A stretch of DNA of 64,000 nucleotides from Symbiodinium sp. CCMP2592 (Eukaryota; Sar; Dinophyceae; Suessiales; Symbiodiniaceae). The position numbers were made by a program, and so were the translations under genes. Positions within the stretch are counted from its first letter, which is position 1, and every line of letters begins with the position of its first letter. Of the stretch, positions 19,356 to 60,935 are shown in pieces. The notes beneath the pieces were generated by a model. The model did no database searches. It was not told the origin of the DNA and saw only the letters and a program-made list of their open reading frames with translations. The stretch is taken from assembly GCA_905221615.1 (NCBI GenBank), contig CAJNDT010005832.1, forward strand, positions 248,001 to 312,000. The letters are read 5' to 3'.

Positions 19356-19737
19356 AGAGTAGCTTGTAGTGCTCCGCAGCAGTGGGGGTCGTCAGCGACG
19401 ACCTTCCACTCCCTTTTATATAACTGTCAGTGCCAGTTATGGTTGACCAAGCAGCCCGCACTTATGCGGCTGAGTCGCCAGAGGCGCCGTACCCTAGAAG
19501 GGACGGTCGAGAAAATCAGTTGGCAGCGCCACAATGCCTGCAACGCGTGCGACAGTGTCGCTCCTGCCTCCGCTTTTTGCAGTGCAATCCAATCTTTGTG
19601 CTAGAGCAGGCCATGCGTGAAGAAATGGCACAACAGGAGATAAGTTATCTCCTTTGGGCCATTAGCTGTGCCATGCGGGTAGACCCCGCGGTCGTCAGCA
19701 GTCCAAAGTTTGGCCCCCCTTCTACCCTTTTGCGCAG
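19356..19737 (+). other. YRE-3 leader, non-coding
   Basis: No coding family is recognised between A1 and the first ORF. Perfect hairpins occur at 19,387-19,403 (7 bp arms, AGC loop), 19,549-19,561 (5 bp arms, AGT loop) and 19,635-19,653 (8 bp arms, AGT loop). Confidence 0.6.
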
Positions 19738-20781
19738 ATGCAAGGGGAACAACCGGACACCTCAGGCAGTGCCTACCCGATGCACCGGTACACTATGTCG
19801 CAGCGCGACGTGCCTATGCGGCCAGCGGCCACGCCTGGCTGGCCGTATACCGGCCTTTTTGACTGGCCCCCCAGTGGGGAGGAAGACAATGTCCCCAAGC
19901 TCCAGTGGAGACTCAATTGGGTGGACGCCCTAGAGGGCCACGTGGCTACTAAGGTGGAAGCCAGCGGCTTCCATTGGCACCCAGAGGGTAAGGGCAAAGG
20001 CAAGGGTGGTTGGGTCAAGATTCTCCCTTCGGAGAAGAAAAAGAAAAAGACTCACAAAGCTGCCAGCGGCAGTACTGACCCCACCGCCTCGTCCAGCACT
20101 GCTCTGCCGACAGCGTCGGCATCAGCCTCGGACCCTCCCTTGCCGCCGCCAGCGGCCGCTCCTGCTAAGCCTGTTTCGGCCACAACAGGCAGCCCGCCCG
20201 CAGCCGAAGCTGCCGACGTCGCCCCGCCAGCGGCGGAGCCAGCCATTGAAGTTATCGACACTGACAGTGATCAGAACTCGGGAGACTCCGAGGTATCCTT
20301 GGCTAGCAGCCAGGCCGCAACGGCAGTGCCGTTCGCGCCGAACGCGAACACTGTGGTCGTGTCCAGACCGCAGCGTCGCAATCGCCAGCGAGGCTGGCAG
20401 TTTCAGCCTGGGGAGGACCCCCAAAATAACGATTGGCGTAACCTCGGGTCAGCGACCGACAACAGGTACCCCGGCCTGCGTGCGCTAGTAGCGCACGCCA
20501 GAAGGGTCTCGCCGCACCTGCACGTCACAGACGTGCACGAATGGCCCTACTGGGCAGCCCCCAACTCAGAGAGATGGGAGAGATACCCGGAGAGGCGCGG
20601 CGACCTCATGTGTTGCATGCCTTGCGCGCAGCAGGGCTGCATCTCCCAGGGCATGGCGATTTGTGGGCGGCACTGCTCAGTGGGCAGGAGCCCCCACAAT
20701 CATCACGAATGCGACAACTGCTATCGCAGCAGCCGGGGTCAGCGACCCCGAAACCGCGGCGTCAGGGGCGGCCGCCGTTAG
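19738..20781 (+). CDS. YRE-3 accessory ORF 1, Cys/His-rich C-terminus, unknown function
   Basis: A 347-codon ORF from an ATG. Residues about 75-110 are Lys/Gly-rich (GKGKGKGGW then EKKKKK). A Pro/Ala/Ser-rich disordered middle follows, with an acidic IEVIDTDSD patch near residue 170. The C-terminus has a Cys/His cluster (DLMCCMPCAQQGC, ICGRHC, HHECDNC) that should bind zinc, then an Arg-rich tail. I do not recognise the family. YRE-5 also places short Cys-rich and Pro/Ser-rich ORFs ahead of its recombinase, so an accessory ORF here may be a feature of this element type. A nucleic-acid-binding role is only a guess from the zinc cluster and basic tail. Confidence 0.6.
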   Translation: MQGEQPDTSGSAYPMHRYTMSQRDVPMRPAATPGWPYTGLFDWPPSGEEDNVPKLQWRLNWVDALEGHVATKVEASGFHWHPEGKGKGKGGWVKILPSEKKKKKTHKAASGSTDPTASSSTALPTASASASDPPLPPPAAAPAKPVSATTGSPPAAEAADVAPPAAEPAIEVIDTDSDQNSGDSEVSLASSQAATAVPFAPNANTVVVSRPQRRNRQRGWQFQPGEDPQNNDWRNLGSATDNRYPGLRALVAHARRVSPHLHVTDVHEWPYWAAPNSERWERYPERRGDLMCCMPCAQQGCISQGMAICGRHCSVGRSPHNHHECDNCYRSSRGQRPRNRGVRGGRR

Positions 20782-21146
20782 GCATGAGTGCAGCGCGTAG
20801 CTGCTGGCCTCTCAGCGAGTCGCCCCCCGTCGGTGCAGCGCACCTCTTTTTGGTTCACCGCCGACAGCTCGGCAGCCTCTGCAGGGCGGGCGTCTCCGAG
20901 GTACTTGGAACCTCGCCCACAGCGGCGGGCCGACGGCATGCTTTGAATGGCGGCAAAAGATCGCCGCTAGTCTTTTTCAGTCGTGTGTCACGCGAGCCTG
21001 GTAGGTCTCCTCAGCTGAGTCAGCTTCTTAAACCGTGTCGGTTTTCAAGCAGTGCTTTCATACCGCAGCCTTTTCAGCTTAGTAAGTCGCCCCCCCGTGC
21101 CCAAAACAACCCCGCTTTCAGCGGAAGCCTCTGTCTGCCATCAGCG
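20782..21146 (+). other. YRE-3 spacer between accessory ORFs
   Basis: A frame stays open through this stretch into the next ORF, but it has no family signature and the first good ATG in that frame is at 21,147. A pyrimidine-rich stretch with CAG trinucleotides lies between about 20,970 and 21,060. Confidence 0.4.
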
Positions 21147-22439
21147 ATGGCGAACCCGACAAATGAGCAGATGCTGCAGGCGCTCAGCGCAGTGCCGGAG
21201 GCCCAGCGGGCCGCCCTCTACGAAGCCGCCGTCTCCCTATCAGAGATAGGGGACGTGGTGGTGAATGCGGCAGAGGCAGCGGAACTCGCTGGTTGGACGA
21301 AGCCCGCCAGTGGCGGCACAGAAGCCAATGCAGTCGCGCTTCAGCGACTTCTGCTCGGCTACGAGCCCCCAGTGGTGCCGGCAAACACCGAGCCACCAGT
21401 GGCGGCACGTGGTGTTTCCTCCGACGGCCACCGCAGCGCGGTGGCCAGTTTGCCTCTTACGACGGCTGCAGCGCAGGCCCCGCAACAACGCTCCCCGACC
21501 AGTCCCGCTGAGGAAGCGGGTTCTGGCATCAAAGAAGAACCTCTTCCAGCGGAAGCTCCCTCGGCAGCGCCGGAGGATATGGACGTGGAGGAGCCGGCGG
21601 CGGGATGAAACCGAAGATGACCGAGGCTCCCGCTCGGAGGAGTCGGAGTCGGAGAGCGACTCCCCGCCACCGCCAGCGCAACCGCACCCTCCCCTTGAGG
21701 GCAAGGTGGCGCGCAAGTCCTCCAGCCCGGCAGTGCCGGCAGTCGCCAGTGGCACGTCGTGGGGAGAGCTCTCGCCCGCGTCCCTGCCAGCAGGCCCCGC
21801 GCAACTGGCGTCGCTGGGACCCGGGCCAGCGGCCCGGCAACAGACGACCACCCTGATCGAGACGATCAGGAAGAGCGCCCGCCAGCGGCGGAGCGTCCGC
21901 CAGCGGCGGAGCTGCAGCGAGTCTTCGCATGTTCAGTCTGCGACAACATGCAGATGAACATCTGGAGCGACCCGTCGTCGGAATTCGTGTGCAGTGCATG
22001 CGGCGAGCTCCACCCCTTCAAGGCAGCAGTGCATGCCTATGATCAGCCCAGCGCCAGTGGCGCTGTGGGGCAGTTTACCCACGATCGTCGCAGCAAGGCC
22101 TGGCAGTGTCCAGAATGCGGCGTGATGCATTGCACACGCTGCGCAAAGAACTACTCTTGCCCAGGCACTGTCCCGCGGACAGACGGCAAGCTCGAGTACA
22201 CGGGCGAGCGCCGCCCTACTAGGGGGCCGCCCGAGTCCCTTCGGTTGACCTTGCAGCGCGAGGCAGCCGAAGCCCGTGAGCGCGAGCACCGCGAACGGGA
22301 GGCCCGCCGCAGAGACGGCAAGGGCAAGGGCAAAGGCAAGGACCAGAGGTCCCGCCGTGACGACGAGGACCGGGACCAGTGGTCCCGTGGTCGCTGGTCT
22401 TGGGACCACGACCGGCGCTGGAACTACCGCGACTGGTAG
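21147..22439 (+). pseudogene. YRE-3 accessory ORF 2, zinc-ribbon protein with frame breaks
   Basis: ATG 21,147 opens an N-terminal helical part (NEQMLQALSAVPEAQ) that stops at 21,608 after a run of acidic residues. The acidic/Ser-rich continuation (ETEDDRGSRSEESESESDS) is in the +1 frame to about 21,870. The C-terminal part returns to the first frame up to 22,439 and holds several CxxC pairs (CSVCDN, CSACGE, CPECG, CTRCAKN) and an Arg/Glu/Lys tail with GKGKGKGK. Either two compensating indels or a spliced segment explains this. A tandem 18 bp repeat near 21,885-21,920 lies at the second frame change. It is likely a zinc-binding protein of unknown role. Confidence 0.5.
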
Positions 22440-22987
22440 AGACGCCAGCGGCGTGCACCAGTGCCCCCCGAACTGTTCGGACACAGTTTTGAAGGGCCAG
22501 TGGCCCTTTCGTCTGCGCCCGTTTCACACAGGTGCAGAGCACGGAGCCTCCGCTGCCCACCGGCCTGTCTGCGGATCGCAGAAGGCAGGTGCAGCGCACC
22601 TCGACAAGCGGGCTCAGCCCAGTCACTCGCACCGCGAGGTCGGAAAAAAGAACACCGCAGGTTGCGTGTGCACACAGACCTTGTAGGGCTGCAGTTTCTT
22701 TTGCCTAGTAGGTTTCAGGTAGCTCTATAGGTGCAGTGCCACCAGCGGGGCCTCGAGTTCTCCAGTGCGTGATTGCCGCAGCCTTTTAAGCCTCACTTCC
22801 TTCCCAGCTCTCTCTTCCTCCTCTCCTCCCTCAGGACTGCCCGGGGAGGGTGCGGGTCGCAGCGCGTCGCTTCAGTTGAGCTTTCCAGAGTGAGTGCGCT
22901 TGTGTTCGTGTGCTGGTAGCCCTTTCCTGCAAGCCGCCTGGACAACAGCCGTTGGCTTGAGCAGTGCTCCTCTTCCTTGTGTCAAGG
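22440..22987 (+). other. YRE-3 spacer before the recombinase
   Basis: Non-coding as far as I can tell. It holds a 7 bp-arm AGT hairpin at 22,492-22,508 and the long pyrimidine tract listed separately. Confidence 0.5.
22790..22834 (+). promoter_or_regulatory. Long pyrimidine tract ending in CAG, candidate trans-splice acceptor
   Basis: About 45 bases are nearly all C and T and end in CCCTCAG, about 155 bp ahead of the recombinase ATG at 22,988. Dinoflagellate mRNAs receive a spliced leader in trans, so a pyrimidine tract plus AG upstream of an internal ORF would separate a polycistronic transcript. This is inferred from sequence only. Confidence 0.4.
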
Positions 22988-24852
22988 ATGCTGCCCAGGG
23001 GCAGCGCCCCGGAGGGCGACTTCAACGACCAGGTTAGTAACCTCTGGTCGTCAATACCACGCCGAGCTGGTGCTCGTCAGCCGTGGGAATCAGCTTCATG
23101 GTTTGCGCGAAATGCAAGCTGGCCCTGGGAGCTGTCAGTGACTCGCCCCGCTTCTGTGGGCCCCGTGCCAGTGCTGCACGAGTCCAGCCTGATGCTCAAG
23201 CGGAAAGCTTCCGCTAGCACCCAGCCGCTAGTAGCGGAAGACACGGCCTTCGCACTTAAGGTCTGCTCCCGTCGTACAGCGTACGAAGGCGACCGCCGCG
23301 ACAGCGCGGTTTTCAAACTTACGGCCTTGGTAAAAGCATGGCCAGAGGCCTTCGAGATCGTCTCACAGTGTGCCGACGAGGTTGGTTGCGTCGACCTGGA
23401 CGAGCTCGACTTCAGCATCGAGGCAGCGCTCAGCTACAAGGCCACCAACACAGTGGTACGCCGCCTCAACTCTCTCAGCAATTTTGTCCAGTGGGCAAAC
23501 TCGCAAGACCCAGTGGTGGTGCCCTTCCCAGTGTCCGAGCGCGCCACTTGGCGCTACATCCAGTGGATGATGCGAAATGGGAAAGGGGCTAGCAGCCCCT
23601 CGAGTTTGATTCAGAGTCTGAACTGGTGCTCGGGAGTCTTCGGTCTGTCCTTCGAGTCGGAGGTGACCAGCTCCCGTATCGTGGGCCTTTGTAAGATTGT
23701 AAGAGCACGGAAGCCAGCGCGCCTCCGCCCCCTGCCCTTAAGGCCTCAGAGGTGGCCACCCTAGAGCGCATCGCGCTGTCTGGCTCTGTGTACGACAGTG
23801 TCGTGTCTGGGGGCTTGTTGTTCATGCTCTTTGCATGCGCCCGCGCCAGTGACGCGGCCCGAGTTGCCTCTTTTTCGGTCGAGCTCCCAGAGGACCCCTG
23901 CGCCACAGTGTGGATGCAGGCGAGTGTGCACAAAGCGAAAACCGCCGTAGGGGCTAGAAGCCGCCTTCTGCTCCCGCTGGTAGCCCCGGTGGTTTTCTTC
24001 GAAGAGTCGTGGGTGAGTCAGTGGCTCGCCAATCGAGAAAAGCTGGGTCTCAGCTCCAGCGGAGAAATCCCGCTAGGGTCAGTGATCCCTGCCTTCACAT
24101 CGGATGGTGATCTAGCAGATCGCCCGATGAATTCTCAAGAAATAACCTCCTGGCTGCGCAGCGCGCTGTCGAACGCTGGCTGTGAAGGCGCAGAGCGCCT
24201 CAGCAGTCACAGTCTCAAAGCGACGTGCCTCACCTGGGCCTCGCAAGCTGGCGTCAACCTGGACCTGCGCAGACTCCTCGCCCACCATGTCCACGACAGT
24301 GCTCGGAGCACTGAGACGTACAGCCGCAACGTGCTCATCCCCGCAGCGCGGGCTCTGGAGGAGGTTCTCATTGCCGTCAGAGATGGCGACTTCCTTCCCG
24401 ACCAGCCACTCGGGAAACAGTTCGCGCTGCCTAGCAGTCAGCTTAACCTGAGGCGAGAGAACCTTAGCAAGGTTTCTCACAGGAAAACCTCCTCTGGCTC
24501 AGCACCCCCAGTGGGGGTGGAAGCCCTGAAGGTTTCGCAACAACAAGAGCTCAGCGACACAGAAGACAGTGCCAGTGACACTGATAGAGAAGACGAGTTC
24601 GTCGCCGAGCCCGAGGTAGAGGAGCACCCTCGCCTCAGAAGGGAGGTGCAGTGCACTCTCCCAGACTGGGCCTTTTCGTGGTGTCATCTTGCCAGTGGCA
24701 AGCTGCACGCGAGCCGCGGCGAGAACGCCAAGAGGCTTCTCTGCGGTCGTTGCTTGAATGAAAAGTATACGAGTTGCGAAGTTCGCGAACTCGCACCAGG
24801 CCGACCGCACTGCAAGACTTGCTGGAGCAGCAAGTCTTTCGATGCAGAGTGA
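22988..24852 (+). pseudogene. YRE-3 tyrosine recombinase with one frameshift
   Basis: The N-terminal frame (ATG 22,988 to 23,764) carries the core-binding domain (SNFVQWANSQDPVVVPFPVS). The catalytic domain is in the next frame (about 23,730-24,852): FACARASDAARV with the first Arg, SSHSLKATCLTW (box II with Lys replacing Arg), LLAHH and the nucleophile TETYSRN. The C-terminus is acidic and ends in a Cys cluster (LLCGRC, then CKTCW). The two frames overlap at 23,752-23,764; the break lies between about 23,700 and 23,735. Either the element was no longer autonomous when trapped or a frameshift is tolerated. The end contains the longest hairpin seen here (24,814-24,838). Confidence 0.85.
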
Positions 24853-24925
24853 AAAAGAGAGCGAGTTCACGAGCCTGTCTGTCCTAGTAGGGTCCTGCAG
24901 TCTACACCGTGTTTGCGTCTCTCTC

Positions 24926-24951
24926 TCTTTTTCATCTTCGCTTGCCCTGCA
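24926..24951 (+). promoter_or_regulatory. Pyrimidine tract and CAG upstream of Gag
   Basis: CTCTCTCTTTTTCATC-type sequence ends in CCCTGCAG six bases before the Gag ATG (24,957). It is the same arrangement as upstream of the recombinase and a plausible trans-splice acceptor for a separate Gag-pol mRNA. Confidence 0.4.
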
Positions 24952-24956
24952 GGACG

Positions 24957-26213
24957 ATGGCGAACCTCGTCGACAGTGTCGCGGAATTCTCCAGCAGAGC
25001 TGGACAACTCCTAGGAGACGCCGAGTCGGCGAAGCTCCATGCGGCAGACATCCGCACTTTCGGCACGCTCGCGTACAGCGTCGCTGACCAACCCGACCGC
25101 ATCAGCGATGCGAAGTTTGAAGAACTCCTCAAGAAGGTCTTCGGGGCGGCAGAGCCGACCTTGGGCACCAAGGCCGCAGTGCGGCGCCTGGCCTTCGAAA
25201 GCCTCACCTTCAGCATCCAGGATCTGAAGATGAGGGTGGAGGGTGACAGCGTCACCCCCAAGAGCCTGCCCCTGCACGAGCGCGAGGAGCGCCGCGCCGC
25301 GCAAGTCGCGCGCCTCCGGGGCGTCGTCATCGAAGGTGACTACGACCCCGCGCACAGCCTCGTGGACAAGGCCGCGCTCATGCTGCAGGACGGCATCGTT
25401 CGTTACATCCCACCGTCGCAGTGCGTCAGCCGGGATGCCGAGATCGCCTCAGTGAGGCGTGACAAGGACTTCCTCTCCCTAGAGTCTGGGGAGATCACAG
25501 TAAAGAAAAAGGAGCACAGCGTGCACGTGGAGATCGGCAATGAGCTAAAGCTCACGCAGGCGCTCACGCGCAGAGGTCTCGCGCTCGACAGAGTCGGCGT
25601 GTTGGATTTCACGATTCACGAGAGACTCGTGAGACAGTTCTTCTCCGTCCTGAACCGGCCAGCGCCGCCGGGGATGGAGCGCGGCAACAGTTGGCACGTA
25701 GTACGGGCCGATAAAGAACTGTGGACGCTGCTCGCGCGAGAGTGTCGCAAGGGTTGCAAACCGGACAAGGATGGTAAGAGGCCACTAGATTCTCTAGTAG
25801 AGAACATGTGGTCCGATCCGATTGTCACGCTGCACCTGCTCCCCTCGCCAGTGGCAGACAGGGGTCGCAAGGGCAAGGGCCGCAGCTTTACGCGCAGCGA
25901 AGAAGACCGCAGTCGTAGCACGACCGGCAAAGGCAAGAAAGGCGGCAAGAAAGGCCGCGGAAAGGGCAAGGGCAAACGGCACGAGAGCGCAGACCGCTCC
26001 AGGCCGCCGAGCATGCCCAAAGAGCTTCGCCACTTGAACAGCGTTTCAAAGTCGGGCAAGCGCCTCTGCTACGGTTTCAACCTGCAGTGCGGGTGCGACC
26101 TTGAGACCTCCGGATCCCCCAAGCAGTGCGACAGGGGGTTGCATCAGTGCATGAGCTGCGGCAGCACCGACCACGGAGCCGCAGATTGCCCCAAGAACGC
26201 AGGGGCCGCCTGA
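24957..26213 (+). CDS. YRE-3 Gag
   Basis: A 418-codon ORF from ATG 24,957 (an upstream in-frame extension has no ATG). The helical N-terminal half (FGTLAYSVADQPDRIS, AVRRLAFESLTFSIQDL) and middle (LTRRGLALDRVGVLDF) are shared with YRE-2. A basic GKGKGK linker follows near residue 330. It ends with a Cys/His cluster: CYGFNLQCGC, then CDRGLHQCMSCGSTDHGAADC, containing a CX2CX4HX4C knuckle. The expected role is particle assembly and RNA packaging. It terminates at TGA 26,211-26,213, but the same frame is open beyond it to the COP-2 insertion, so a Gag-pol fusion by readthrough is likely. Confidence 0.9.
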   Translation: MANLVDSVAEFSSRAGQLLGDAESAKLHAADIRTFGTLAYSVADQPDRISDAKFEELLKKVFGAAEPTLGTKAAVRRLAFESLTFSIQDLKMRVEGDSVTPKSLPLHEREERRAAQVARLRGVVIEGDYDPAHSLVDKAALMLQDGIVRYIPPSQCVSRDAEIASVRRDKDFLSLESGEITVKKKEHSVHVEIGNELKLTQALTRRGLALDRVGVLDFTIHERLVRQFFSVLNRPAPPGMERGNSWHVVRADKELWTLLARECRKGCKPDKDGKRPLDSLVENMWSDPIVTLHLLPSPVADRGRKGKGRSFTRSEEDRSRSTTGKGKKGGKKGRGKGKGKRHESADRSRPPSMPKELRHLNSVSKSGKRLCYGFNLQCGCDLETSGSPKQCDRGLHQCMSCGSTDHGAADCPKNAGAA

Positions 26214-26217
26214 CTAG
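26211..26217 (+). promoter_or_regulatory. UGA CUAG stop-codon readthrough signal
   Basis: Gag ends in TGA CTAG G. UGA followed by CUAG is the best characterised natural readthrough context in eukaryotic mRNAs. The frame then stays open for 83 codons up to the COP-2 insertion and, once COP-2 and one CTGAA copy are ignored, continues to the pol stop at 48,373-48,375. Other YR elements here have UGA CAA and UGA CAG at the same point. Confidence 0.7.
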
Positions 26218-26462
26218 GCACCCCTGCCCTGAGCGCGGCAGAGCCGCAACAGCCCTCGGCCACTGAGCCCGCAGCTCCTTGCCCAGCAGCGCTGGGCCTC
26301 CCTGCCACCGCGCCACGCGCAGGGCAGAGCCCTGACCCTCCCACCTCGGCACCGTCGCTGCACCCGCCTGCAACAAGTAAGCCAGGATGTGCCACAGCTG
26401 CGCCGTCGCCTGACGCAGGGTTCGCGGCAAACGCCGACCCCCCAGCGCTCCTGTTGTCTGAA
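26214..26462 (+). CDS. YRE-3 pol N-terminal segment, cut by COP-2
   Basis: 83 codons in the Gag frame, rich in Pro, Ala and Thr, linking Gag to the methyltransferase-like domain. It ends at the target-site duplication CTGAA (26,458-26,462) and resumes at 45,430 after COP-2. It has no domain of its own and probably acts as a flexible linker. Confidence 0.75.
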
Positions 26463-26640
26463 TGTTAAACATTCTGCCAGGAACAGTAACACAGCTAGTG
26501 CAGTACAGTTAATGTACAGGAACAGCCGTCACGCACACGCGACGTGCAGGCTCGAGACCCCAGGACACACCGTGCCCAGGAACAAAAGTGTCCGACAGTC
26601 TTTGTGGGTAGGAACCCTTAGTGAAGCCCGTTCTTTAACA
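26463..26640 (+). repeat. COP-2 5' LTR
   Basis: 178 bp, TG...CA ends, inverted terminal bases TGTTAAA/TTTAACA. It contains four AGGAAC words (26,479, 26,518, 26,578 and 26,610). It is identical to the 3' LTR as far as I can read, which implies a very young insertion. Confidence 0.95.
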
Positions 26641-29055: not shown

Positions 29056-29250
29056 AACCTTCGAATTTTGGGCGGCCGGGCGGGAAAAGATATTTTCAGT
29101 TTTGAGTTTTTCCTAGTTTCCGTTTTCAGCTCACTGTCTCTCAGTTTGTCTCAGATCCTTTCAGTTCTCAGTGAGAATCCGTCTTTCCGATATGTTTAGG
29201 CTCAGTTTTAGTTTTTGGTAGTGTGGGGCAAAGGCTCCATTCGGACGTAG

Positions 29251-31233: not shown

Positions 31234-31532
31234 GAGTACGTTCGAAGCTTGGCGACAAATTGTGTGTTGCGGTAGGAGTGTGCTGTGTTCGAGGTGCGGC
31301 ATGTACATGGCTGTTTGCATGGGTAGGTGCTCGCTTGAGGGAGTTTGGCTAAGGCAGCTTCGCAGGACCGTCGGCATGTACGTGATTGTGAGTGATCCAC
31401 GATTTTCAGTGTCAGTCGCGAGTGCATGCAATTCTACAATTACGGAGTTAGGAGCTGTGTGATTTTCAGTTGCCATGGGCTACCGCTGAGAGTGCGGTTT
31501 CAGTTGCACAGCACGGTGCTGTTTCAGATAGC

Positions 31533-36782: not shown

Positions 36783-36980
36783 CTCAGGGAGAGGGGGCGA
36801 GGCTACGCACACCAGATGTGCCTGCCTTCCCTCCGACGAGGGGACGTTCACCACCATCCGAGAAAAAGAGTCTTCGTCCGAGTGCTTGAAGGATTGAATT
36901 TATATTTCCTTTATACTTATGACTCTGACGTGCATATATTCATCCAAGTTTGAAGGAACGATTTTAGTAGAAGGTTTAGC
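36783..36980 (+). other. YRE-4 3' untranslated region and junction
   Basis: About 200 bp with no coding and no copy of any sequence near 29,050-29,250. It ends in stops in the COP-2 frame (36,965, 36,968, 36,977), after which COP-2 Gag resumes. Confidence 0.5.
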
Positions 36981-37663
36981 GTTCGGCTCAAACCTCAAAA
37001 CAAGAAGGGGAAAACAGTGGAAAAGGTTACGGCTTTGACAGCAAAGGCAAAGGTAAAGGTAAAGGTTTCGGAGGTTTTGGCAAAGGCAGAGGTCGAGGCA
37101 ACTGGAAAGGCCGAGGTAGAGGTTTCAGAGGTTACAAAGGAAAAGGCAAAGGTCGAGGAAGAGGTTTCTTCAGACACAAAGGAAAAGGTAAAGGCAAAGC
37201 CCAAGCAGCTACAGGAGTGTGTCACTACTGTCATAAGTATGGACATTTCGAAGCACAGTGCAGACAGAAGATGCGTGACATGGGTTACCAGGCCAGGAAC
37301 GTTGACCTTGAAAACCAGAGCGAGCAAGCAAGCACTACAGGTACTTCAACTCAGGCCCCTTCGTCAGCCAACAAGACCTCAACAAGCCAAAGCCAAGCAA
37401 GCCAAGGAACCCAAAGACCAGTGATTAGGATGGTCTCCATGTACCACATGGGAGACGAGCCCACAAGCTTTCCGGAGGAATTCGAGCTGAGTGAGAACTC
37501 TGAAGAGATAGAGATTGAGTACTTCGGAAGAGTTTTGCGGGTTGTTGGTGAAGAAGTTCAGGAAGAGAGGAGTGAGACAGAAGAGTTTTGGATTGGTGAT
37601 GAAGATGATGAGTTTCAGGACTGTGATGAGGTGAGTGATGATGATGGTTGCAATGGCATCTAG
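36980..37663 (+). CDS. COP-2 Gag 3' part with zinc knuckle
   Basis: After YRE-4 the Gag frame continues with a Gly/Arg/Lys-rich segment and a CX2CX4HX4C knuckle (CHYCHKYGHFEAQC, about 37,217-37,262) that would bind genomic RNA. An acidic tail follows, ending at TAG 37,661-37,663. Pol lies in the -1 frame and is open only from 37,645, so the two overlap by about 19 nt. I see no canonical slippery heptamer there, so how pol is expressed is unclear. Confidence 0.85.
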   Translation, partial: RSAQTSKQEGENSGKGYGFDSKGKGKGKGFGGFGKGRGRGNWKGRGRGFRGYKGKGKGRGRGFFRHKGKGKGKAQAATGVCHYCHKYGHFEAQCRQKMRDMGYQARNVDLENQSEQASTTGTSTQAPSSANKTSTSQSQASQGTQRPVIRMVSMYHMGDEPTSFPEEFELSENSEEIEIEYFGRVLRVVGEEVQEERSETEEFWIGDEDDEFQDCDEVSDDDGCNGI

Positions 37664-42765: not shown

Positions 42766-43595
42766 GAACGTCTGCAGGAACAGCGCATGGAACAACATGT
42801 CGTGAGATGCTTTCGCAGCTCAAGGAACTCTGCGGAACACTCGCGGAACGCTCAGGTATCCAGGAACTAGTTCGCCCGGTAGCAGAAGGTCAAGGAACCT
42901 TAGAACGACAGAGTCAAGGAACCTTAGCAGCCATGGAAGCAAGCGCGAGTTCGAGCAAGAACACAGCGGAAGTTTTCAAGGAACTGGAAACTTTGAAGGA
43001 AGCGGCGACAGCCTTAAGGAACGCTTCTGAAGAAAGGAACGTGATCGCGGAGTCGATCAGGAAGAACACAGAGGAAGCGGCGCGTTTGCGCAAAAGCCAG
43101 GAACACGTGGCTGGTTGTGTGGAGTCCTTGACAGGACAAATCTACGACGTCAAGCACCAGGTTCAGGAAATGGCCGAACAGAACGACAGAGACCGGCAAC
43201 AAGTCAAGGAACACATGGCCTTCGTCCTAGGTACATGTGACGCCGTAAAGGAACAGCTGAACCAGATGATGCAGGACTTCTACGAGCAGCAGCAAGAGGA
43301 ACAAGAAGAAGAGGAAGAAGACGAAGAAGAACAAAGGAAAAGAGAAGCCAAGGACCGAGAACTAGAAGGTGAACTACGTCGTGAAGGACACGGACAAGGA
43401 ACAGCACCGTCGAGAGCTACGTCACCTACGTCCCAGGAAAGGAAAGAATATTCGGACCGAGGCTACTTCGAGGGCATCCAGGAACGAGAGCAGGAAGCCG
43501 GCAACGAGAACGAGGCCTACGTCAACAGCTACGTTGGAGGAGAAGATCCCGGGGAGTACCCCGATGAAGGCAGCAGCAGAGGAAGAAGAAAGTGA
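42735..43595 (+). CDS. COP-2 3' ORF X, coiled-coil protein
   Basis: 286 codons from ATG 42,735, overlapping the pol end by 31 bp in another frame. Residues about 60-190 are helical with a heptad-like pattern (FKELETLKEAATALRN, IRKNTEEAARLRK, QVQEMAEQN), then a Glu-rich run and a charged tail. I recognise no family. It sits in the env-like position between pol and the 3' LTR, where some Copia lineages (sireviruses) carry an extra ORF, but it has no signal peptide or membrane segment. A structural or tethering role would fit the coiled coil. Confidence 0.7.
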   Translation: MCSDTSACELGTSAGTAHGTTCREMLSQLKELCGTLAERSGIQELVRPVAEGQGTLERQSQGTLAAMEASASSSKNTAEVFKELETLKEAATALRNASEERNVIAESIRKNTEEAARLRKSQEHVAGCVESLTGQIYDVKHQVQEMAEQNDRDRQQVKEHMAFVLGTCDAVKEQLNQMMQDFYEQQQEEQEEEEEDEEEQRKREAKDRELEGELRREGHGQGTAPSRATSPTSQERKEYSDRGYFEGIQEREQEAGNENEAYVNSYVGGEDPGEYPDEGSSRGRRK

Positions 43596-44952
43596 GGAAG
43601 CAAAGGAAGAGAGAAGAAAGAAGAAGATCGCGGAGATCAACGCCAAAAGCAAGCAAAGGCTCAAGGAAAAGGAAGAGGAGAAGAAGCTCTTTCCGTACCC
43701 CTACGACTACGCCAGCGAGTGGAAGGAATACTCCGAGAACGGCGAGATCTACAGGCAACACAGAGTTACAGGAGAAAAGCAGTGGGTCGACAAGGACTAC
43801 ACGTACAAGCACGAGAAAGGAACAAAAGGAAAGAAGGAAGGAAAAGGAAAAGGAAAGCCAAAGGCAAGAGCAGAAAGCACAGGATTTCGACCTCGAGATG
43901 AAGATGATCGCAAATACTGGGAAGAACAGGACAGGATCTCAAAGGAACAGAGAGAAGCAAAAGCAAAAGCAGAAGAGGAGAAGAAGGCAAAAGAGGAGCA
44001 GATTGCCAAAGCAAGGTTGATTCTGGAAGCGGCAGCAGAAGAGCAGGAGAAGAGAGACAAGGAAGCAGCAAGGCAGGAAGCAGCCGCAGCCGCCGAGAGA
44101 AGGCGAGAGGTAGAAGCAGCAGCCAAAGCCAAGGCAGAGAGAGAAGCAAAGGAAAAGGAGGAGACCGAAGCAGCAGCAGCAAAGGAGGCAGAGGAGAAAG
44201 CAGCAACCGCAGCAGCCAAAGAGGAGAAGGAAAGAAAGGAGCAGGAAAAGAAAAGAAAGGAGAAGGAAGCCAGGAAGAAGAGAGAGGAAGATCAAAAGGC
44301 AGCGTCAGCGTACATTGCCAAGAAGGAAGCAGAAAAGAAGGCAGCAGCAACAACAGCAACAGGATCAGGTGAAGCAGACAGGATCCAGAAGCTTGAAGAA
44401 ATGATGAAGGAGATGATGAAGGAACGCAAAGAGGATAAAGAAAGGATTGCAAGCCTTACACAGGAGCTTGAGAGCAGAGGATCAGCAGCCGGGTCGCAGG
44501 CACCCACAGAACCAGACACAACACCAGCAAAGGAAGAGGAGAAGCCAGAAGCAAAAGGAACAGGAAAAGCAACAGGAAAGGAGCCACCGAACGTCACACA
44601 GCACAAGCAGAAGGAAGAAGACAAGGACGACCCAGAACTGTCCGCCAAAGGACCAGTGAACGAAGCATCGTTCATGAAAGGAAAAGGAAAAGGAGAGTTT
44701 GAAGGAAACTGGTTTGCAGTCTACAGTTTCCAGAACAGGAAATACCAGTGGAAGTGGAACGAAGCCAAGGCACAGTGGTACTGGTATTCAGGATCAAAGG
44801 AAACAGGTTGGAAAGCAGCGTCAAAGGACAAGCAAGGAAAGGAAAAGTGCAAAGCGCAAGCAAAGATGAAAGAAGAGTGGCTAAAGGAACAGCTTCAAGA
44901 CCAGAAGGAAGCTAAAGACAGCGAAGAGGAAGGCGAAGTAACCTTCCAGTGA
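43564..44952 (+). CDS. COP-2 3' ORF Y, WW-like and Ala/Lys/Glu-rich protein
   Basis: About 462 codons from ATG 43,564, overlapping ORF X by 32 bp in a different frame (the frame is open further upstream). Residues near 50-75 look like a WW domain: SEWKEYSENGEIYRQHR, then GEKQW, with 20 residues between the two Trp, as in WW folds. A very long Ala/Glu/Lys helix follows (about 120-270), then a short coiled coil (IQKLEEMMKEMMKER) and a C-terminal Trp-rich segment (YQWKWNEAKAQWYWY). I do not recognise the protein as a whole. The two short overlaps (pol/X and X/Y) suggest coupled translation or reinitiation. Confidence 0.65.
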   Translation: MKAAAEEEESEEAKEERRKKKIAEINAKSKQRLKEKEEEKKLFPYPYDYASEWKEYSENGEIYRQHRVTGEKQWVDKDYTYKHEKGTKGKKEGKGKGKPKARAESTGFRPRDEDDRKYWEEQDRISKEQREAKAKAEEEKKAKEEQIAKARLILEAAAEEQEKRDKEAARQEAAAAAERRREVEAAAKAKAEREAKEKEETEAAAAKEAEEKAATAAAKEEKERKEQEKKRKEKEARKKREEDQKAASAYIAKKEAEKKAAATTATGSGEADRIQKLEEMMKEMMKERKEDKERIASLTQELESRGSAAGSQAPTEPDTTPAKEEEKPEAKGTGKATGKEPPNVTQHKQKEEDKDDPELSAKGPVNEASFMKGKGKGEFEGNWFAVYSFQNRKYQWKWNEAKAQWYWYSGSKETGWKAASKDKQGKEKCKAQAKMKEEWLKEQLQDQKEAKDSEEEGEVTFQ

Positions 44953-45246
44953 AGCAAAGGAACCACGAGCAGTACTGAGGCCAGAGAGCCGAGGAAAGAA
45001 GCAGCAGGACACAGGAACCGTGGCACAGCCCTTTTTGTTTCTGTGGTGATCTAGGTAAAGTGCAGGAACGTCTTTTGTACAGTCGAGCAACCTTGGAGAG
45101 GATTGCGAGTGAACGTGCGCATACGTTTGCGATGAGGAACAGTGTTTGTTTTGCAAGTGAAAAGGAACTGCAGTGTGTTTACTGTTTGTCAAGGAAAAGT
45201 CGGAGTCACCTCAGTCGAGGAACTTTCGCTAACTCCGAAGGCGGGG
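44953..45246 (+). other. COP-2 3' untranslated region with polypurine tract
   Basis: Non-coding; several AGGAAC words. It ends in GAAGGCGGGG (45,237-45,246), a purine tract directly before the 3' LTR that would prime plus-strand DNA synthesis. Confidence 0.75.
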
Positions 45247-45424
45247 TGTTAAACATTCTGCCAGGAACAGTAACACAGCTAGTGCAGTACAGTTAATGTA
45301 CAGGAACAGCCGTCACGCACACGCGACGTGCAGGCTCGAGACCCCAGGACACACCGTGCCCAGGAACAAAAGTGTCCGACAGTCTTTGTGGGTAGGAACC
45401 CTTAGTGAAGCCCGTTCTTTAACA
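45247..45424 (+). repeat. COP-2 3' LTR
   Basis: 178 bp, TGTTAAA...TTTAACA, identical to the 5' LTR as read. It is followed by the target duplication CTGAA (45,425-45,429), and the YRE-3 pol frame resumes there. Confidence 0.95.
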
Positions 45425-45429
45425 CTGAA

Positions 45430-48375
45430 CAGCACAGCGTGCCTGCAGACAACGCTCTGGGCGTTCCTCTCCATGAGCCTGCTCCGCAAGCGACCCCTCG
45501 GCCGCCACTGTTTGTGGAAGTTTTCTGCGGCCTCGGTCGCCTTAGTAAGGCAGCCATCGAGAAAGGCTTCTCGAACGTCGCCGTGGATCACAAGACGAAG
45601 GCCAGAGGCCTCAAGGTCCTGCAGCTCGACCTTTGTACGCAGCTGGGTCGCAACCTGCTGAGAGCAGTGCTCTCGCACCAAGACCTGAGATGGGTCCACT
45701 GGGCCCCGCCGTGCGGCACCTTTAGCAGAGCTAGAGAGATTCCCAGGCCGGGAGCGCCGGGCCCTTTGCGCAGCGAATCGCGCCCAGCAGGCCTTAAAGG
45801 CCTCCGAGGAGCAGACGCAGCACGAGTTCGCAGCGCGAACAGCCTAGTCGCTTTCATGGCACAGTGTTGCCACTCCCTGTCGCAGCGCGGCGTTTGCTGG
45901 TCCATAGAAAATCCAGCTCGTAGCCTCCTCTGGAGGATGGCCTTGCAGTCAGCCCACAGAGTGGAGTTTGACGCGTGCATGTTCGGAAGCATGCGCCGCA
46001 AGCGTACTGCAATCGTCTCAAATTTGGATTGGTTCTCTGGTCTAAGCAGGGACTGCGACGGAGGCCACAAACACCTGCCCTGGGGCAGAGCCTCAGTGGA
46101 TGGTTCCACAGTGTGGTCTACCTCCCTAGAAAGCGCCTACACCACTCAGCTGAGCTCGGTCTGGGTCTCCCTCGCGGCAGAGGCAGCGCCTCTCAGTCGC
46201 AAGCGTCTGCGTCGCCTGCGCTACGAGCCAGACTTCAGTGACAAAGTCACTCTCCAAGGCCCCGCAGCGCGGTGCTTTCGAGGCTGGAAGACCCCCCAGA
46301 AGCTACCACAGTCGTGGACTTGCTTCCCAAAAGGCTCTAGGCTCATCCAGTGGATCGAAGCCTCCCAGAAGGCCATCATCGCCATCCCGCTGCAGCCTCT
46401 ACACTGGGTGCGCAGAGCGCATCTCATCGATCACCCAGCCAGGGACATTGAGGCAGTGCCTCTATCCCTCAAGCGCGCCATCGCTGCCGAAGTGCACGAA
46501 GACACTGTCCTGCTGGCCAAGCGCCGCACGTTGGCATCGATGCATATATCGAGAACTTGCACAGAGTGCCAAGCCCTCGAGACCGGGGTACGTTCGTCGA
46601 TTGACGCTCAGGTGAACAGCGTCACCAAGCCCAAGCAGACAGTAGCTTTAGCAAAGCTTCTGAGTGAAATCGACTTCCCGGACAGGACATTGGCACAGCA
46701 GGTGCGGGAAGGTTTTCCCCTGCTTGGCTGGATACAACCCAGTGGGTTGTGGCCAGTGCAGATTCTGCCTCCTTCTCTAGATGAGAAGTCAATACTGGAA
46801 AACGCCCATAGCATAGGTATGCGCGGCGTTCGCAGCGCTCTGCGCCCCTCGCAGGACGGGGTCTCAGACAGGGTCTGGCGGGTCTGGGAAAGCACAATCG
46901 AGGAAGGCCAGCAGGGCTGGCTCTCTTTGGAGGACTTCTCGCCAGAAAAACTGCACGAGACGATAGTATCGTCTCGCTTCGGCGTTGTGCAAAAGGGCAA
47001 AGTGCGCCCCATTGATAATTTTAAGAGCAGCTTTATCAACAGCTGCTGCGGGACCACAGAGAAGGTCCAAGTCGATAGCATCGACGAGCTCCTTGCCGTG
47101 TGCCTCGAGTGGCTGCGCCAGGGTGTGCCCGCAGAGCGGGCCCACCGCATCGTAGGCAGGACCTGGGACCTCAAGAGTGCCTACAAGCAGCTTGCAGTGC
47201 AGGCCGCACACAAGAAATTCGCGTGCATCGTCATGGTGGACCCACAGAGTGGGAAGGTTAAAATAGCCCACCTACACAGCATGCCTTTCGGCGCAGTGGC
47301 CGCCGTGCACGCTTTCCTCCGCTGCAGCGAAGCGCTGAAAGCCATCGGCCGCGAAAAGCTTGCTTTGGTCATGACGAGCTTCTTCGACGACTTCACCGTT
47401 CTTACGCGCAGCGCGCATTCGAAGCTCGTCACGTTGGCAGTGTCCAACCTTTTTAACAAGCTGGGCTGGCAAGTGGCCACAGAGCCCAAGAAGAACGCCG
47501 ACTTCAGCGAAGTCTTCGACGTGCTAGGCGTGCGAGTCGACTTGTCTAAGCAGCACCTTGGAGAAATCTCCGTGAGCAACAAGCCGACCCGTGCAGCAGA
47601 GCTGGGGATGGTCCTCAGCGAGGCCCTCGCCCGGGGCACCATGTCCCCCTTGGAAGCGCAGAGCCTGCGCGGCAGGCTCATCTTCGCTGAGCAGCAAGCC
47701 TGGGGTCGCAACACTCGCATGGCAGTGATCTGCGTCGGCGACGTCCTTGGGGATGGACCAGAGCAAGTCCCCCTCACCGAGCAGCAATGCCAAGCCATGG
47801 CGTTCCTGCTGCAACGAGTAGTGCACGGACCGCCCAGGACAGTGTCCATCCATGCGCGCAGGAAGGTGCACCTATATATCGACGGGGCCTGCGAGTGGGA
47901 GACCCCGCGACTGGTGCCCAAGTGTGGCCTCGGAGCAGTGCTCATTGGAGAAGGCATCGCCTTCACCTGGGGGCTGCAGATCAGCAGCCAGGTTGCAGCC
48001 CAGTGGGTTGCCAGGGCACAGAAGCAGCAGTTGGTCTACGAGTGCGAGCTGTTGCCCTATTTGCTTAGCCTTCAACTGTGGGCCAAGCATATAGCAGGCA
48101 GTGACCTGTTCGTCTGGATAGATAACGACGCAGCGCGTACTTCCTTACACAAGGCCTTCACACGCAAGGTAGAAGGCGCAGCGATAGTCTCGCAAGCGGT
48201 GGACTTTGAAGAGTCTCTGCAGTGCAGGGCTGCTTTCTTCCGAGTCCCGACAGACAGCAACATCGCTGATGGCCCCAGCAGAGACTGGTGGGAAGAGACT
48301 GAGAGGCTAGGCGCAGCGCGCCAATACCTGCCGCCCAACGCAGTGCCGTTGGCTTTGTCACTCGGCGCGGACTAG
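45430..48375 (+). CDS. YRE-3 polyprotein: methyltransferase-like, RT, RNase H
   Basis: Continues in frame from 26,462. A C5-methyltransferase-like domain spans about residues 20-170 from 45,439: EVFCGLGRLSKAA (motif I-like), WAPPCGTFSRARE (PPC, motif IV-like) near 88, and SIENPARSLLW (ENP, motif VI-like) near 156. RT follows with DLKSAYKQLA, MPFGAVAAVHAF and SFFDDF near 644. RNase H follows with LYIDGACE, the Glu in YECELLPY, VWIDNDAA and NIADGPSRDW. All four RNase H acidic residues are present. There is no oxygenase-like domain, unlike YRE-2 and YRE-4. Retrotransposon methyltransferases in Symbiodinium have been shown to methylate CG sites; whether this divergent copy does is unknown. The stop is 33 bp before repeat B1. 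Confidence 0.9.
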   Translation, partial: QHSVPADNALGVPLHEPAPQATPRPPLFVEVFCGLGRLSKAAIEKGFSNVAVDHKTKARGLKVLQLDLCTQLGRNLLRAVLSHQDLRWVHWAPPCGTFSRAREIPRPGAPGPLRSESRPAGLKGLRGADAARVRSANSLVAFMAQCCHSLSQRGVCWSIENPARSLLWRMALQSAHRVEFDACMFGSMRRKRTAIVSNLDWFSGLSRDCDGGHKHLPWGRASVDGSTVWSTSLESAYTTQLSSVWVSLAAEAAPLSRKRLRRLRYEPDFSDKVTLQGPAARCFRGWKTPQKLPQSWTCFPKGSRLIQWIEASQKAIIAIPLQPLHWVRRAHLIDHPARDIEAVPLSLKRAIAAEVHEDTVLLAKRRTLASMHISRTCTECQALETGVRSSIDAQVNSVTKPKQTVALAKLLSEIDFPDRTLAQQVREGFPLLGWIQPSGLWPVQILPPSLDEKSILENAHSIGMRGVRSALRPSQDGVSDRVWRVWESTIEEGQQGWLSLEDFSPEKLHETIVSSRFGVVQKGKVRPIDNFKSSFINSCCGTTEKVQVDSIDELLAVCLEWLRQGVPAERAHRIVGRTWDLKSAYKQLAVQAAHKKFACIVMVDPQSGKVKIAHLHSMPFGAVAAVHAFLRCSEALKAIGREKLALVMTSFFDDFTVLTRSAHSKLVTLAVSNLFNKLGWQVATEPKKNADFSEVFDVLGVRVDLSKQHLGEISVSNKPTRAAELGMVLSEALARGTMSPLEAQSLRGRLIFAEQQAWGRNTRMAVICVGDVLGDGPEQVPLTEQQCQAMAFLLQRVVHGPPRTVSIHARRKVHLYIDGACEWETPRLVPKCGLGAVLIGEGIAFTWGLQISSQVAAQWVARAQKQQLVYECELLPYLLSLQLWAKHIAGSDLFVWIDNDAARTSLHKAFTRKVEGAAIVSQAVDFEESLQCRAAFFRVPTDSNIADGPSRDWWEETERLGAARQYLPPNAVPLALSLGAD

Positions 48376-48408
48376 ATGGGGGGTGAGTAAGGCTTCGAGT
48401 GCCTTCAA

Positions 48409-49237
48409 GGGGGGTGAACCAGTCGTTCGCCTTACCATCGACCAGCGGTCGAGTTTTGAATCAAGATGCCAGTGGCATCGTTTCGTCAGTGCCCGAAGAT
48501 CGGGCCCGAACTGACCCCCCATGTCCGCTAGGAGAAAAAAGAGAGTGTTTTGCACAGGGTTCCTCTGCAGCGCAGTTAGGGTTTCCCAAACGCGCGCTAA
48601 CGGAAGTTTCGTTGGAAAATAAGCATCCATCATGCGTGCGTGAATGGGTTTTATTTTCCGCCGAAAGTGTAGACAAAGTTTGTCGAAAAAGGAAAACAGT
48701 GTTTTCACTTGTGTGTGAGTGACACTAGACAAATTTTGCCGTGCAGCTTTCGGCTTGGAGTTGGATCTGTGATCCAAAAAGTTTTTATCCCACCCACCAC
48801 ACCCTGTATAGTATGCGGGGTCTGGGACACCGCGTCGGCAGCAGAACTGCCAGGAGCAGCGTCCTATGTTCTCTCCCGCAGAGAGGCGTCAGCACAGAGT
48901 GCACTCTTGTACATAGGCCGTAGGCCGTCAGACTACAGAGTAGCAACTGGTAGCTGCAGTGACCCAGTAGGTCAGAGAATGTTTCACCTTACCTTCCCGT
49001 GGTACGGGTTTTTCCCTGGTAGGGGGGGTGAACCAGTCGTTCGCCTTACCATCGAGCAGCGGTCGAGTTTTGAATCAAGATGCCAGTGGCATCTTTTCGT
49101 CAGTGCCCGAAGATCGGGCCCGAACCGACCCCCCATGTCCGCTAGGAGAAAAAAGAGAGTGTTTTGCACAGGGTTCCTCTGCAGCGCAGTTAGGGTTTCC
49201 CAAACGCGCGCTAACGGAAGTTTCGTTGGAAAATAAG
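48409..49237 (+). repeat. YRE-3 split direct repeats B1-A2-B2
   Basis: B1 is 48,409-48,623 and B2 is 49,023-49,237 (215 bp, three differences). Between them, A2 repeats A1 over 48,624-48,788 and then carries 234 bp (48,789-49,022) beginning CCCACCCACC that is not in A1. B ends GGAAAATAAG; A2 has the complementary TTTTATTTTCC 30 bp later, giving a hairpin across the junction. One of the three B differences changes a GATGCC-AGT-GGCATC hairpin from 6 bp arms (B1) to 8 bp arms (B2, 49,077-49,095). Confidence 0.9.
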
Positions 49238-60893: not shown

Positions 60894-60935
60894 AAGCACC
60901 CCCAGTTCTGCAACGGATAAAGGGGGGGGGCATCC

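Follow-up and report, generated by a model that had tools for sequence, protein, structure and literature searches.

YRE-3, a DIRS-like retrotransposon with a putative tyrosine recombinase in the 1.1 Gb genome of the dinoflagellate Symbiodinium sp. CCMP2592, carries a dense array of short hairpins with an AGN triloop on its sense strand. The array ends at both boundaries of the element within the 64,000-nucleotide stretch of DNA analyzed here (the window), is conserved among copies of YRE-3, and is missing from every other pol-related element sampled in this genome. We infer that the hairpins act as RNA, with a putative protein reading the A and the G of the loop. Judged from sequence, they are probably dispersed protein-recognition hairpins on the YRE-3 RNA, most likely packaging or condensation sites for the element's own Gag or for its ORF1 or ORF0 product.

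In the window, YRE-3 consists of two blocks (11,090 bp in total) separated by a later insertion, and its split direct repeats are arranged in the order A-coding-B-A-B. The features are:

19186..26462, + strand: left part of YRE-3 with A1, ORF0, the ORF1 region, the recombinase, and the Gag-like ORF; 92 AGN hairpins (arms of at least 4 bp)
19186..19355, + strand: split direct repeat A1, identical to A2; 3 hairpins (arms of at least 4 bp)
19738..20781, + strand: ORF0, 347 aa in the window copy, Cys/His-rich with a basic C-terminus; 16 AGN hairpins
20478..20498, + strand: hairpin (site 20487), 9-bp arms, AGT loop; second pair C-G in 6, T-A in 11, and C-A in 2 among 19 copies
21239..22439, + strand: ORF1 region, zinc-ribbon-like cysteines and a basic tail; 15 AGN hairpins
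22964..24852, + strand: putative tyrosine recombinase, weak match to PF00589; 23 AGN hairpins
24814..24838, + strand: hairpin with the longest arms (11 bp), loop GAG, an exception to AGN
24909..26213, + strand: Gag-like protein, 434 aa, Cys/His knuckle at the C-terminal end; 14 AGN hairpins
24990..25004, + strand: hairpin (site 24996), 6-bp arms, AGA loop; fourth pair C-G in 16 copies, G-C in the remaining 3 of the 19
26463..45424, + strand: later insertion splitting YRE-3, with 178-bp identical terminal repeats and an overlap of about 5 bp at the junction
45425..49237, + strand: right part of YRE-3 with pol and the B1-A2-B2 repeats; 44 AGN hairpins (arms of at least 4 bp), 43 of them counted within pol and B-A-B
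45439..48375, + strand: pol (putative reverse transcriptase), 978 aa, weak match to PF00078; 31 AGN hairpins
46956..46976, + strand: hairpin, 9-bp arms, AGT loop; the right arm encodes VSSR, common to most pol relatives
48409..48623, + strand: repeat B1, 212/215 identity with B2
48619..48788, + strand: repeat A2, identical to A1
49023..49237, + strand: repeat B2, counterpart of B1

One of the three differences between B1 and B2 extends a hairpin and another disrupts a pair in a hairpin arm. The domain matches were weak: the recombinase matched Phage_integrase PF00589 with E = 1.9e-4 and 21.7 bits, under the curated cut-off of 27.1 (E = 4.8e-4 for the version in copy L029), and pol matched PF00078 with E = 9.3e-5 and 22.7 bits, under the cut-off of 29.6. 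A weak zf-CCHC match was obtained for the L029 version of the Gag-like protein (E = 0.89). The recombinase is spread over two overlapping frames in the window copy versus a single 629-aa frame in L029, and the ORF1 region is open over 470 aa in L029 but split among several frames in the window copy; the predicted structure of ORF1 was poor (pLDDT 46). ORF0 had no Pfam match (versions L012 and L029 scanned) and no match elsewhere in the window or in L030-L034. A Pfam scan of pol (E up to 0.01) returned no methyltransferase family, Dnmt3 included. By eye, the N-terminus of pol contains motifs that we take to be methyltransferase-like. YRE-3 shares the repeat arrangement and a dinoflagellate host with SymbioDIRS; its putative tyrosine recombinase and a Pol with a putative divergent reverse transcriptase would be further common features. 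The reverse transcriptases of Symbiodinium DIRS are described as aligning poorly to Pfam seeds (PMC5890265). It differs from SymbioDIRS in lacking a Pfam-recognized cytosine-methyltransferase domain in pol, and in ORF0, ORF1, and the hairpin array, which the relevant passages of that paper do not mention (PMC5890265).

An earlier sequence-only reading had listed 21 perfect triloop palindromes with arms of at least 6 bp in YRE-3. All 21 were present and perfect at their coordinates; 12 had arms of at least 7 bp, and 19 had AGT, AGC, or AGA loops, the exceptions being ACA (20519) and GAG (24814). The list was nevertheless incomplete and understated the observation: YRE-3 contains 68 such palindromes, 28 of them with arms of at least 7 bp, compared to 3.7 and 0.75 expected from order-2 Markov simulations and to 4.6 and 1.5 per equal length in the remaining 53 kb of the window. 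At the 968 AGN sites of YRE-3, hairpin counts were 135, 86, 50, and 22 for minimum arm lengths of 4, 5, 6, and 7 bp, respectively; the corresponding numbers at the 4768 AGN sites in the rest of the window were 24, 6, 2, and 2, from which about 4.9 hairpins would be expected in place of the 135. As sequence, the array thus displays the repeated stem-loops with a common loop motif that are looked for in packaging signals. The mirror motif (NCT loop) had arms of at least 5 bp at only 1 of 679 sites in YRE-3, and the feature is therefore strand-specific (sense only). Loops other than AGN were mildly enriched (27 of 9389 with at least 5 bp in YRE-3 versus 56 of 45189 elsewhere in the window).

The 135 AGN hairpins comprised 52 AGC, 50 AGT, 28 AGA, and 5 AGG loops, and 101 were closed by a C-G pair. 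The motif is accordingly a stem of any sequence, mostly C-G closed, around an AGC, AGU, or AGA loop. Forms with an unpaired base on the 3′ side after pair 1 or 2 were also present in the window copy (7 for k = 1 and 4 for k = 2, versus 0.8 and 0.3 in simulations); their loops were AGT (8) or AGA (3), never AGC. Synonymous-codon shuffles of pol (n = 300), a check proposed in the sequence-only reading, abolished nearly all AGN hairpins with arms of at least 6 bp (mean 0.28, maximum 2, versus 11 observed).

Hairpins with arms of at least 4 bp occurred at 9.5-21 per kb in 11 of the 12 compartments of YRE-3 counted, the sole compartment without hairpins being a 56-bp gap. They had been placed inside the Gag and pol frames, where they do occur, but they are not confined to these and are also found in the UTR, ORF0, ORF1, the recombinase, and the terminal B-A-B repeats. 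Mean density was about one hairpin per 80 nt regardless of reading frame, and the loop is not tied to one codon phase, since all three are used in pol (9, 2, 7). Spacing was not clearly more regular than random (CV 0.74 versus 0.82, P = 0.10 for arms of 4; 0.85 versus 0.88, P = 0.36 for arms of 5). As had been noticed, hairpins are inconspicuous in the other elements: the insertion at 26463-45424 was at background (8 of 1965 AG sites, arms of at least 4 bp).

In RNA viruses with genome-scale ordered RNA structure, the coding RNA is folded to excess over its full length. The same was seen along YRE-3, where folding energy fell below that of shuffled sequence (mean z of the sense strand -2.03 for 9 windows of 200 nt and -1.43 for 10 windows), compared to values near 0 (0.02 to 0.44) in four other elements. 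In contrast to such viruses, much of the excess in YRE-3 comes from short, uniform hairpins whose loop is fixed. The predicted fold of the sense strand was not consistently stronger than that of the antisense strand (z -2.0 and -1.4 versus -1.7 and -2.3).

To assess conservation, hairpins were defined on the window copy alone, variation was scored among 17 other copies of the same genome, and Fisher tests were applied. At stem positions 1-5, 6 of 105 four-fold sites varied (minor count of at least 2), compared to 289 of 1071 outside the stems (p = 1e-7). Among sites not covered by the five ORFs used, variation affected 6 of 255 in stems versus 354 of 2566 elsewhere (p = 2e-9). Loop A and G were variable at 0 of 153 sites (minor count of at least 3), compared to 107 of 1536 at other AG dinucleotides (p = 7e-5); loop N varied at 5 of 76 (minor count of at least 2). 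The constraint stops at position 5, since positions 6 and beyond were as variable as other DNA (16 of 147 versus 901 of 8576). In L029, which is 8-9% diverged from the window copy, the five inner pairs were intact in 63 of 72 comparable hairpins. The motif is thus kept against synonymous drift, with the caveat that singletons were also rarer in stems (5 of 105 versus 135 of 1071 at four-fold sites; 25 of 255 versus 381 of 2566 outside the ORFs used), so that part of the reduced variation could reflect mutability. The comparison of copies indicates purifying selection on the YRE-3 hairpins.

In imperfect inner stems of the window copy, G.U outnumbered A.C by 28 to 5 at positions 2-4 (flanks 97 versus 121), in a setting and at positions picked after the data were seen; the same setting gave 38 versus 22 at positions 1-5 (p = 0.013). 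Over four settings at positions 1-5 the counts were 22/18, 38/22, 15/9, and 25/12, and the excess is setting-dependent; among variants common to at least three copies, G.U was no commoner than A.C. Compensatory changes were few (14 pair positions, some in badly aligned rows), because the copies are just 1-12% apart. They include (i) the second pair of the hairpin at 20478-20498, with a C-A intermediate; (ii) site 25024, where a C-A intermediate is also present; and (iii) two pairs (21902 and 24996) that flip between G-C and C-G with no intermediate seen. At 19699, a deletion in the window copy starts at the loop/right-arm junction of a hairpin kept by the other copies shown.

Searches for relatives returned 21 for pol, 79 for Gag (L029 version as query), and one for ORF1; none of the pol relatives came from the collections of viral contigs or genome contigs. 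Hairpin potential was scored by back-translation (arms of 5). The five ORFs of the window copy reached z values of 1.6 to 5.2 and five control ORFs -0.3 to 1.0; the amino-acid order of the YRE-3 ORFs carries hairpin signal. Among the Gag relatives, this signal was scored for 17 of the 79, plus P0022. Four partial relatives (P0022 and P0101, both encoded in Symbiodinium sp. CCMP2456, together with P0028 and P0026) had z values of 1.4-4.7 and show a protein-level shadow of the array; 14 other Gag or fusion relatives were mostly near 0, the highest being P0033 with z = 2.5 for 4 bp and P0027 with z = 1.6 for 5 bp. The pol relatives P0001-P0021 were rejected as array carriers for want of a clear protein-level signal (the top values being z = 1.7 for P0010 with 4 bp and z = 1.1 for P0003 with 5 bp). 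A single DIRS clade seems to have acquired the array once it had separated from relatives that are about 50% identical in Gag and pol.

A literature search by titles and abstract openings found no comparable hairpin array. One close likeness is to the dispersed packaging signals described for single-stranded RNA viruses and HBV pregenomic RNA, likewise many varied stem-loops with a short common recognition motif (PMC6281560); YRE-3 differs in being a retrotransposon with about 135 candidate sites of one triloop type in 11 kb. A second likeness is to the iron-responsive element CAGUGX, for which a C-G pair is described as closing an AGU triloop, with its A and G flipping into the protein to make deep contacts (PMC4041422); these are the conserved loop bases in YRE-3. 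However, YRE-3 has no mid-stem bulge, AGC is as common as AGU, the sixth base is usually paired, and the hairpins lie within coding sequence. Membership was rejected, as Rfam gave no iron-responsive element match at E up to 10 (7277 + 3813 bases) and nothing near a gathering score, and a single-base bulge on the 5′ side after pair 5, followed by four further pairs, was found 0 times in YRE-3.

Three causes had been proposed in the sequence-only reading. Selection for RNA structure is supported by the conserved stems and loop A and G, by the surplus of G.U over A.C in some settings, and by the few compensatory pairs. Tiny palindromic insertions are hardly credible as the source of the hairpins: pol hairpins lay over alignment gaps in 2 of 31 cases for P0001 (1.6 expected), 4 of 28 for P0002 (2.5), and 2 of 25 for P0003 (1.3), and several fall on residues common to relatives (FSRAR, RLSKA, VSSR). 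Template switching during reverse transcription, perfecting quasi-palindromes that have no function, could account for single double-transversion flips such as those at 21902 and 24996, and the deletion at 19699 would fit as well; yet it predicts neither the fixed loop A and G beside a freer loop N nor the restriction to the sense strand, the other retroelements sampled here are also reverse transcribed and lack the array, and the C-A intermediates at two sites point to stepwise substitution. We regard it as very improbable.

Among readings that grant a function, action at the level of single-stranded cDNA or DNA, such as serving the recombinase or helping to form the DNA intermediate, would also give strand specificity in a reverse-transcribed element, but about 135 sites across the whole body are unexpected for a recombination site, and in the most favorable setting sense-strand G.T exceeds A.C in inner stems; it seems improbable. 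To much the same degree we doubt a general pervasive RNA structure acting against nucleases or double-stranded RNA sensors with no specific reader: the folding z values of YRE-3 and their contrast with the four other elements speak for it, and it leaves unpredicted the conserved AG loop, the near-absence of AGG, the C-G closing pair, and the end of constraint at 5 bp. Less easily set aside, if still unlikely, is a host protein that reads the selected hairpins for stability, export, translation, or escape from silencing. Purifying selection on stems and loop fits this equally well, the motif resembles the loop logic of the iron-responsive element (PMC4041422), and the 3′-bulged variants avoid AGC. 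Against it stand the lack of the array in other pol-related elements sampled from this genome, which meet the same host proteins, the lack of any Rfam family at the cut-off, iron-responsive element included, and the missing 5′-side bulge five pairs below the loop.

If the hairpins are packaging or condensation sites, the full-length sense RNA of YRE-3 would be studded with a recognition element consisting of a 4-7 bp stem and the triloop A-G-H (H = A, C, U). Candidate binders would be the Gag-like protein or the Cys/His-rich ORF1 and ORF0 products, and the RNA-binding protein of the element may pick out and compact full-length RNA into a particle prior to reverse transcription. Base substitution would be the chief origin of the hairpins, largely through synonymous changes and in part with amino-acid replacements as the price. 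Because Gag proteins of this family are common among relatives that show no hairpin signal, this specificity would have to be a new acquisition if Gag is the reader. More tentatively, the array may form an RNA address code, a C-AGH-G loop on sequence-free stems repeated about 130 times across genes and noncoding parts, read by a clade-specific ORF1 or ORF0 product or by a re-specified Gag that marks and packs no RNA but its own.

There is dispute over how the RNAs of retroelements and viruses are selected and condensed, because the dispersed packaging signals of viruses are degenerate and difficult to recognize. The YRE-3 motif is near-uniform, dense, synonymously conserved, and found in one clade, which makes the question testable with one hairpin and few candidate proteins. 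The array also suggests that selection at the RNA level has been reshaping several YRE-3 proteins at once.

All 21 perfect triloop hairpins listed by the sequence-only reading in YRE-3, a DIRS-like tyrosine-recombinase retrotransposon, are real, and the full set is larger. Triloops with arms of at least 6 bp numbered 68, against 3.7 expected in order-2 Markov sequence, and loops of 0, 2, 4, 6, 8, and 10 bases occurred near chance at this arm length. Odd loop sizes besides 3 were also in excess; of 91 five-base loops with arms of at least 5 bp, at least 35 read CAG-C/T/A-G, i.e. had the same AGN centres. Among 968 AGN sites in YRE-3, 375, 224, 161, 135, 86, 50, 22, 7, and 3 reached one to nine pairs, respectively. 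The fourth pair was present in 84% of the sites having three, and AGN hairpins therefore form a distinct population of about 130. The motif is C-AGH-G (H = A, C or U) with free stem sequence: in 135 hairpins the closing pair was C-G (101), T-A (15), A-T (11) or G-C (8), and the loop AGC (52), AGT (50), AGA (28) or AGG (5). In eleven hairpins of the window copy (e.g. those with loops near 20266, 22105, 24081, and 47439), one base is left unpaired on the 3′ side of pair one or two; their loops are AGT (8) and AGA (3), and AGC, though the commonest loop overall, is absent.

The window (248001-312000) belongs to a 1.1-Gb assembly. YRE-3 has the repeat order A-coding-B-A-B, as in DIRS-like elements, and is split by a later element:

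19186-19355 and 48619-48788: repeat A of YRE-3, 100% identity
48409-48623 and 49023-49237: repeat B of YRE-3, 212/215 identity
26463-45424: inserted element; its two 178-bp terminal repeats (26463-26640 and 45247-45424) are identical

Published SymbioDIRS elements of Symbiodinium have the same repeat layout (PMC5890265). The junction of YRE-3 with the inserted element overlaps by about 5 bp, and the insertion is probably recent, since its terminal repeats are identical. A Copia-like pol (named by eye) lies within it at 37648-42765, and 29251-36782 looks like another YRE-type element. Elsewhere, 11650-16500 holds nested direct and inverted repeats (82-94% identity), and 423-829 is directly repeated at 1108-1503 (96.6%). 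Of the 12 YRE-3 compartments, 11 carry 9.5-21 AGN hairpins per kb and the last, a 56-bp gap, carries none; the inserted DNA has 0.4 per kb, and the two flanking kilobases hold 1 and 0. Loops neither AGN nor NCT (the mirror motif) were in mild excess (27 of 9389 with at least 5 bp, where the rate elsewhere in the window predicts about 12). Hairpins with 7-base loops reached about 2-3 times the simulated number in 29251-36800 (19 vs. 8.2), 11650-16500 (14 vs. 6.3), and 60000-64000 (11 vs. 3.9), many loop sizes and regions having been compared.

Protein sequence and chance do not account for the hairpins. Exchange of codons among synonymous positions, a control proposed by the sequence-only reading, did not reproduce the counts of AGN hairpins with at least 6 bp (shuffled means 0.03-0.28 vs. 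3-11): ORF0 had 5 (0.17), recombinase frames a and b 3 (0.03) and 4 (0.04), Gag 6 (0.07), and pol 11 (0.28). Five other window ORFs handled identically had 0 or 1. The amino-acid order of YRE-3 proteins is also shaped: hairpins arose more often on random back-translation of these proteins than of block-shuffled versions (at 5 bp, z 1.6 to 5.2, and -0.3 to 1.0 for five controls).

The first genome search gave 47 matches, the window itself included, the others being 96-99% identical in protein. Twenty copies were fetched and 17 aligned with the window copy; three (L010, L018, and L024) were excluded as incomplete or carrying extra DNA. All DNA copies compared are from one genome and mutually close, with 104-126 AGN hairpins of at least 4 bp per aligned sequence. 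Hairpins were taken from the window copy only, and variation was counted only among the other 17 (variable: minor count of at least 2). Variable sites made up 6/304 of stem positions 1-2, 15/456 of positions 3-5, 16/147 of positions 6 and beyond, and 901/8576 elsewhere. Four-fold sites were variable at 6/105 in stems and 289/1071 outside; beyond the five ORFs used (with the ORF1 region counted here) the figures were 6/255 and 354/2566 (both Fisher-tested). In the loop, A varied at 1/77, G at 0/76, and N at 5/76. First and second codon positions showed no stem difference (3/171 vs. 56/2005 and 4/175 vs. 38/2002), and the reduction was much smaller in non-AGN triloop stems (38/554). The low variation is taken as a sign of selection, though not an unmixed one: singletons too are rarer in stems (four-fold sites, 5/105 vs. 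135/1071), and lower mutability may contribute; it would not explain the loop pattern. In L029, a diverged copy 8-9% from the window copy, 63 of 72 comparable hairpins retain all five inner pairs.

Codon-position variation in all five YRE-3 ORFs was typical of protein-coding selection; in ORF1, variation was 5.7% at first positions, 4.8% at second positions, and 24% at four-fold sites. L029 has part of ORF0 first, then ORF1 (470 aa), the recombinase (629 aa), the Gag-like frame (434 aa), and finally pol. Judged by eye, FVEVFCGLGRLS, APPCGTFSRAR, and ENPARS in the pol N-terminus (45439-46000) resemble motifs of cytosine methyltransferases; a Pfam scan of YRE-3 pol reported no cytosine-methyltransferase family. 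The window copy has a pol 27 bases shorter than that of many other copies, lacks about 38 bases at 19699-19700 relative to the copies shown (starting where the loop of a GGTCGTC-AGC-GACGACC hairpin meets its right arm), and has further indels, tens of bases each, near 21745 and 22716.

NCT loops showed no excess in YRE-3. In imperfect stems, where Watson-Crick pairing was required of at least four of the remaining five pairs in positions 1-6, G.U on the sense strand outnumbered A.C by 28 to 5 at stem positions 2-4 (97 to 121 at flanking positions 9-15), this setting and these positions having been picked after the data were seen. Over positions 1-5, four settings gave 22 to 18, 38 to 22, 15 to 9, and 25 to 12. 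Variants common to at least three copies had G.U and A.C equally often and lent no support to RNA. The G.U excess in imperfect stems points to RNA, though not firmly. Compensatory pairs were few, at 14 pair positions among copies, with alignment doubtful at 21548, 21732, and part of 19394 and two of the 14 in a stretch missing from the window copy. Clear cases are the pairs at 20487 (C-G 6, C-A 2, T-A 11), 25024 (C-G 17, C-A 1, T-A 1), and 24996 (C-G 16, G-C 3); at 21902 the third pair is compensated, with the closing pair lost alongside.

Tiny palindromic insertions, one origin offered by the sequence-only reading, were rejected: 2 of 31 pol hairpins overlapped a gap to the protein relative P0001 (null 1.6). 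Several pol hairpins sit on residues common to relatives. Five other loci of the same genome (L030-L034), found via related pol proteins, had 0 to 3 AGN hairpins of at least 4 bp on either strand. As for the density in other elements, which that reading had singled out for comparison, triloops of at least 5 bp were near chance in L030-L033 (12, 7, 5, and 15 vs. 7.8, 7.9, 8.6, and 9.2) and triloops at chance in the window YRE at 1620-11000 (9 vs. 9.8); the pol of the window YRE at 32847-36782 had 0 hairpins.

Protein-level hairpin potential was raised in four partial relatives (z at 4 and 5 bp): P0022, an ORF1 relative from Symbiodinium sp. CCMP2456 (3.1, 2.8), P0101 (2.7, 4.7), P0028 (3.2, 3.0), and P0026 (1.4, 2.2). 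Among 14 other Gag/fusion relatives, P0033 reached 2.5 and 1.3, P0027 1.6 (5 bp), and the rest at most 1.1; the sample covers 17 of 79 Gag relatives. Where they align, P0101, P0028, and P0026 share 72-84% identity with YRE-3 proteins, and they have inherited some of the hairpin signal. P0022 is 47% identical, with five of its six candidate sites beyond the BLAST-aligned stretch. A word-based search of 5.8 billion proteins (7996 candidates scored) found one ORF1 relative. ORF0 and ORF1 had no match in L030-L034 or elsewhere in the window; Gag and recombinase matched in L030, L032, L033, and the window. ORF1 and the array thus appear to go together, at least within this limited data set; a fast-evolving ORF1 could be missed.

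In iron-responsive elements, the triloop sits on a C-G closing pair, with its A and G turned outward into the bound protein (PMC4041422). This loop logic, as that source presents it, resembles the YRE-3 hairpin loop, but the family's other features are not shared by the YRE-3 hairpins. Several traits together would mark a protein-binding RNA hairpin reused along one RNA: the loop is uniform and has two fixed bases, one closing pair is preferred, the stem is free in sequence and limited to about five constrained pairs, the array keeps to one strand, and nearly all compartments carry it. The nearest described kind is the dispersed packaging signals of RNA viruses, as characterized in PMC6281560. 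Given these marks and this likeness, we favour a reading for which we infer binder, particle, and function alike: YRE-3 RNA would be packaged or condensed by Gag or by ORF1/ORF0 via the hairpins.
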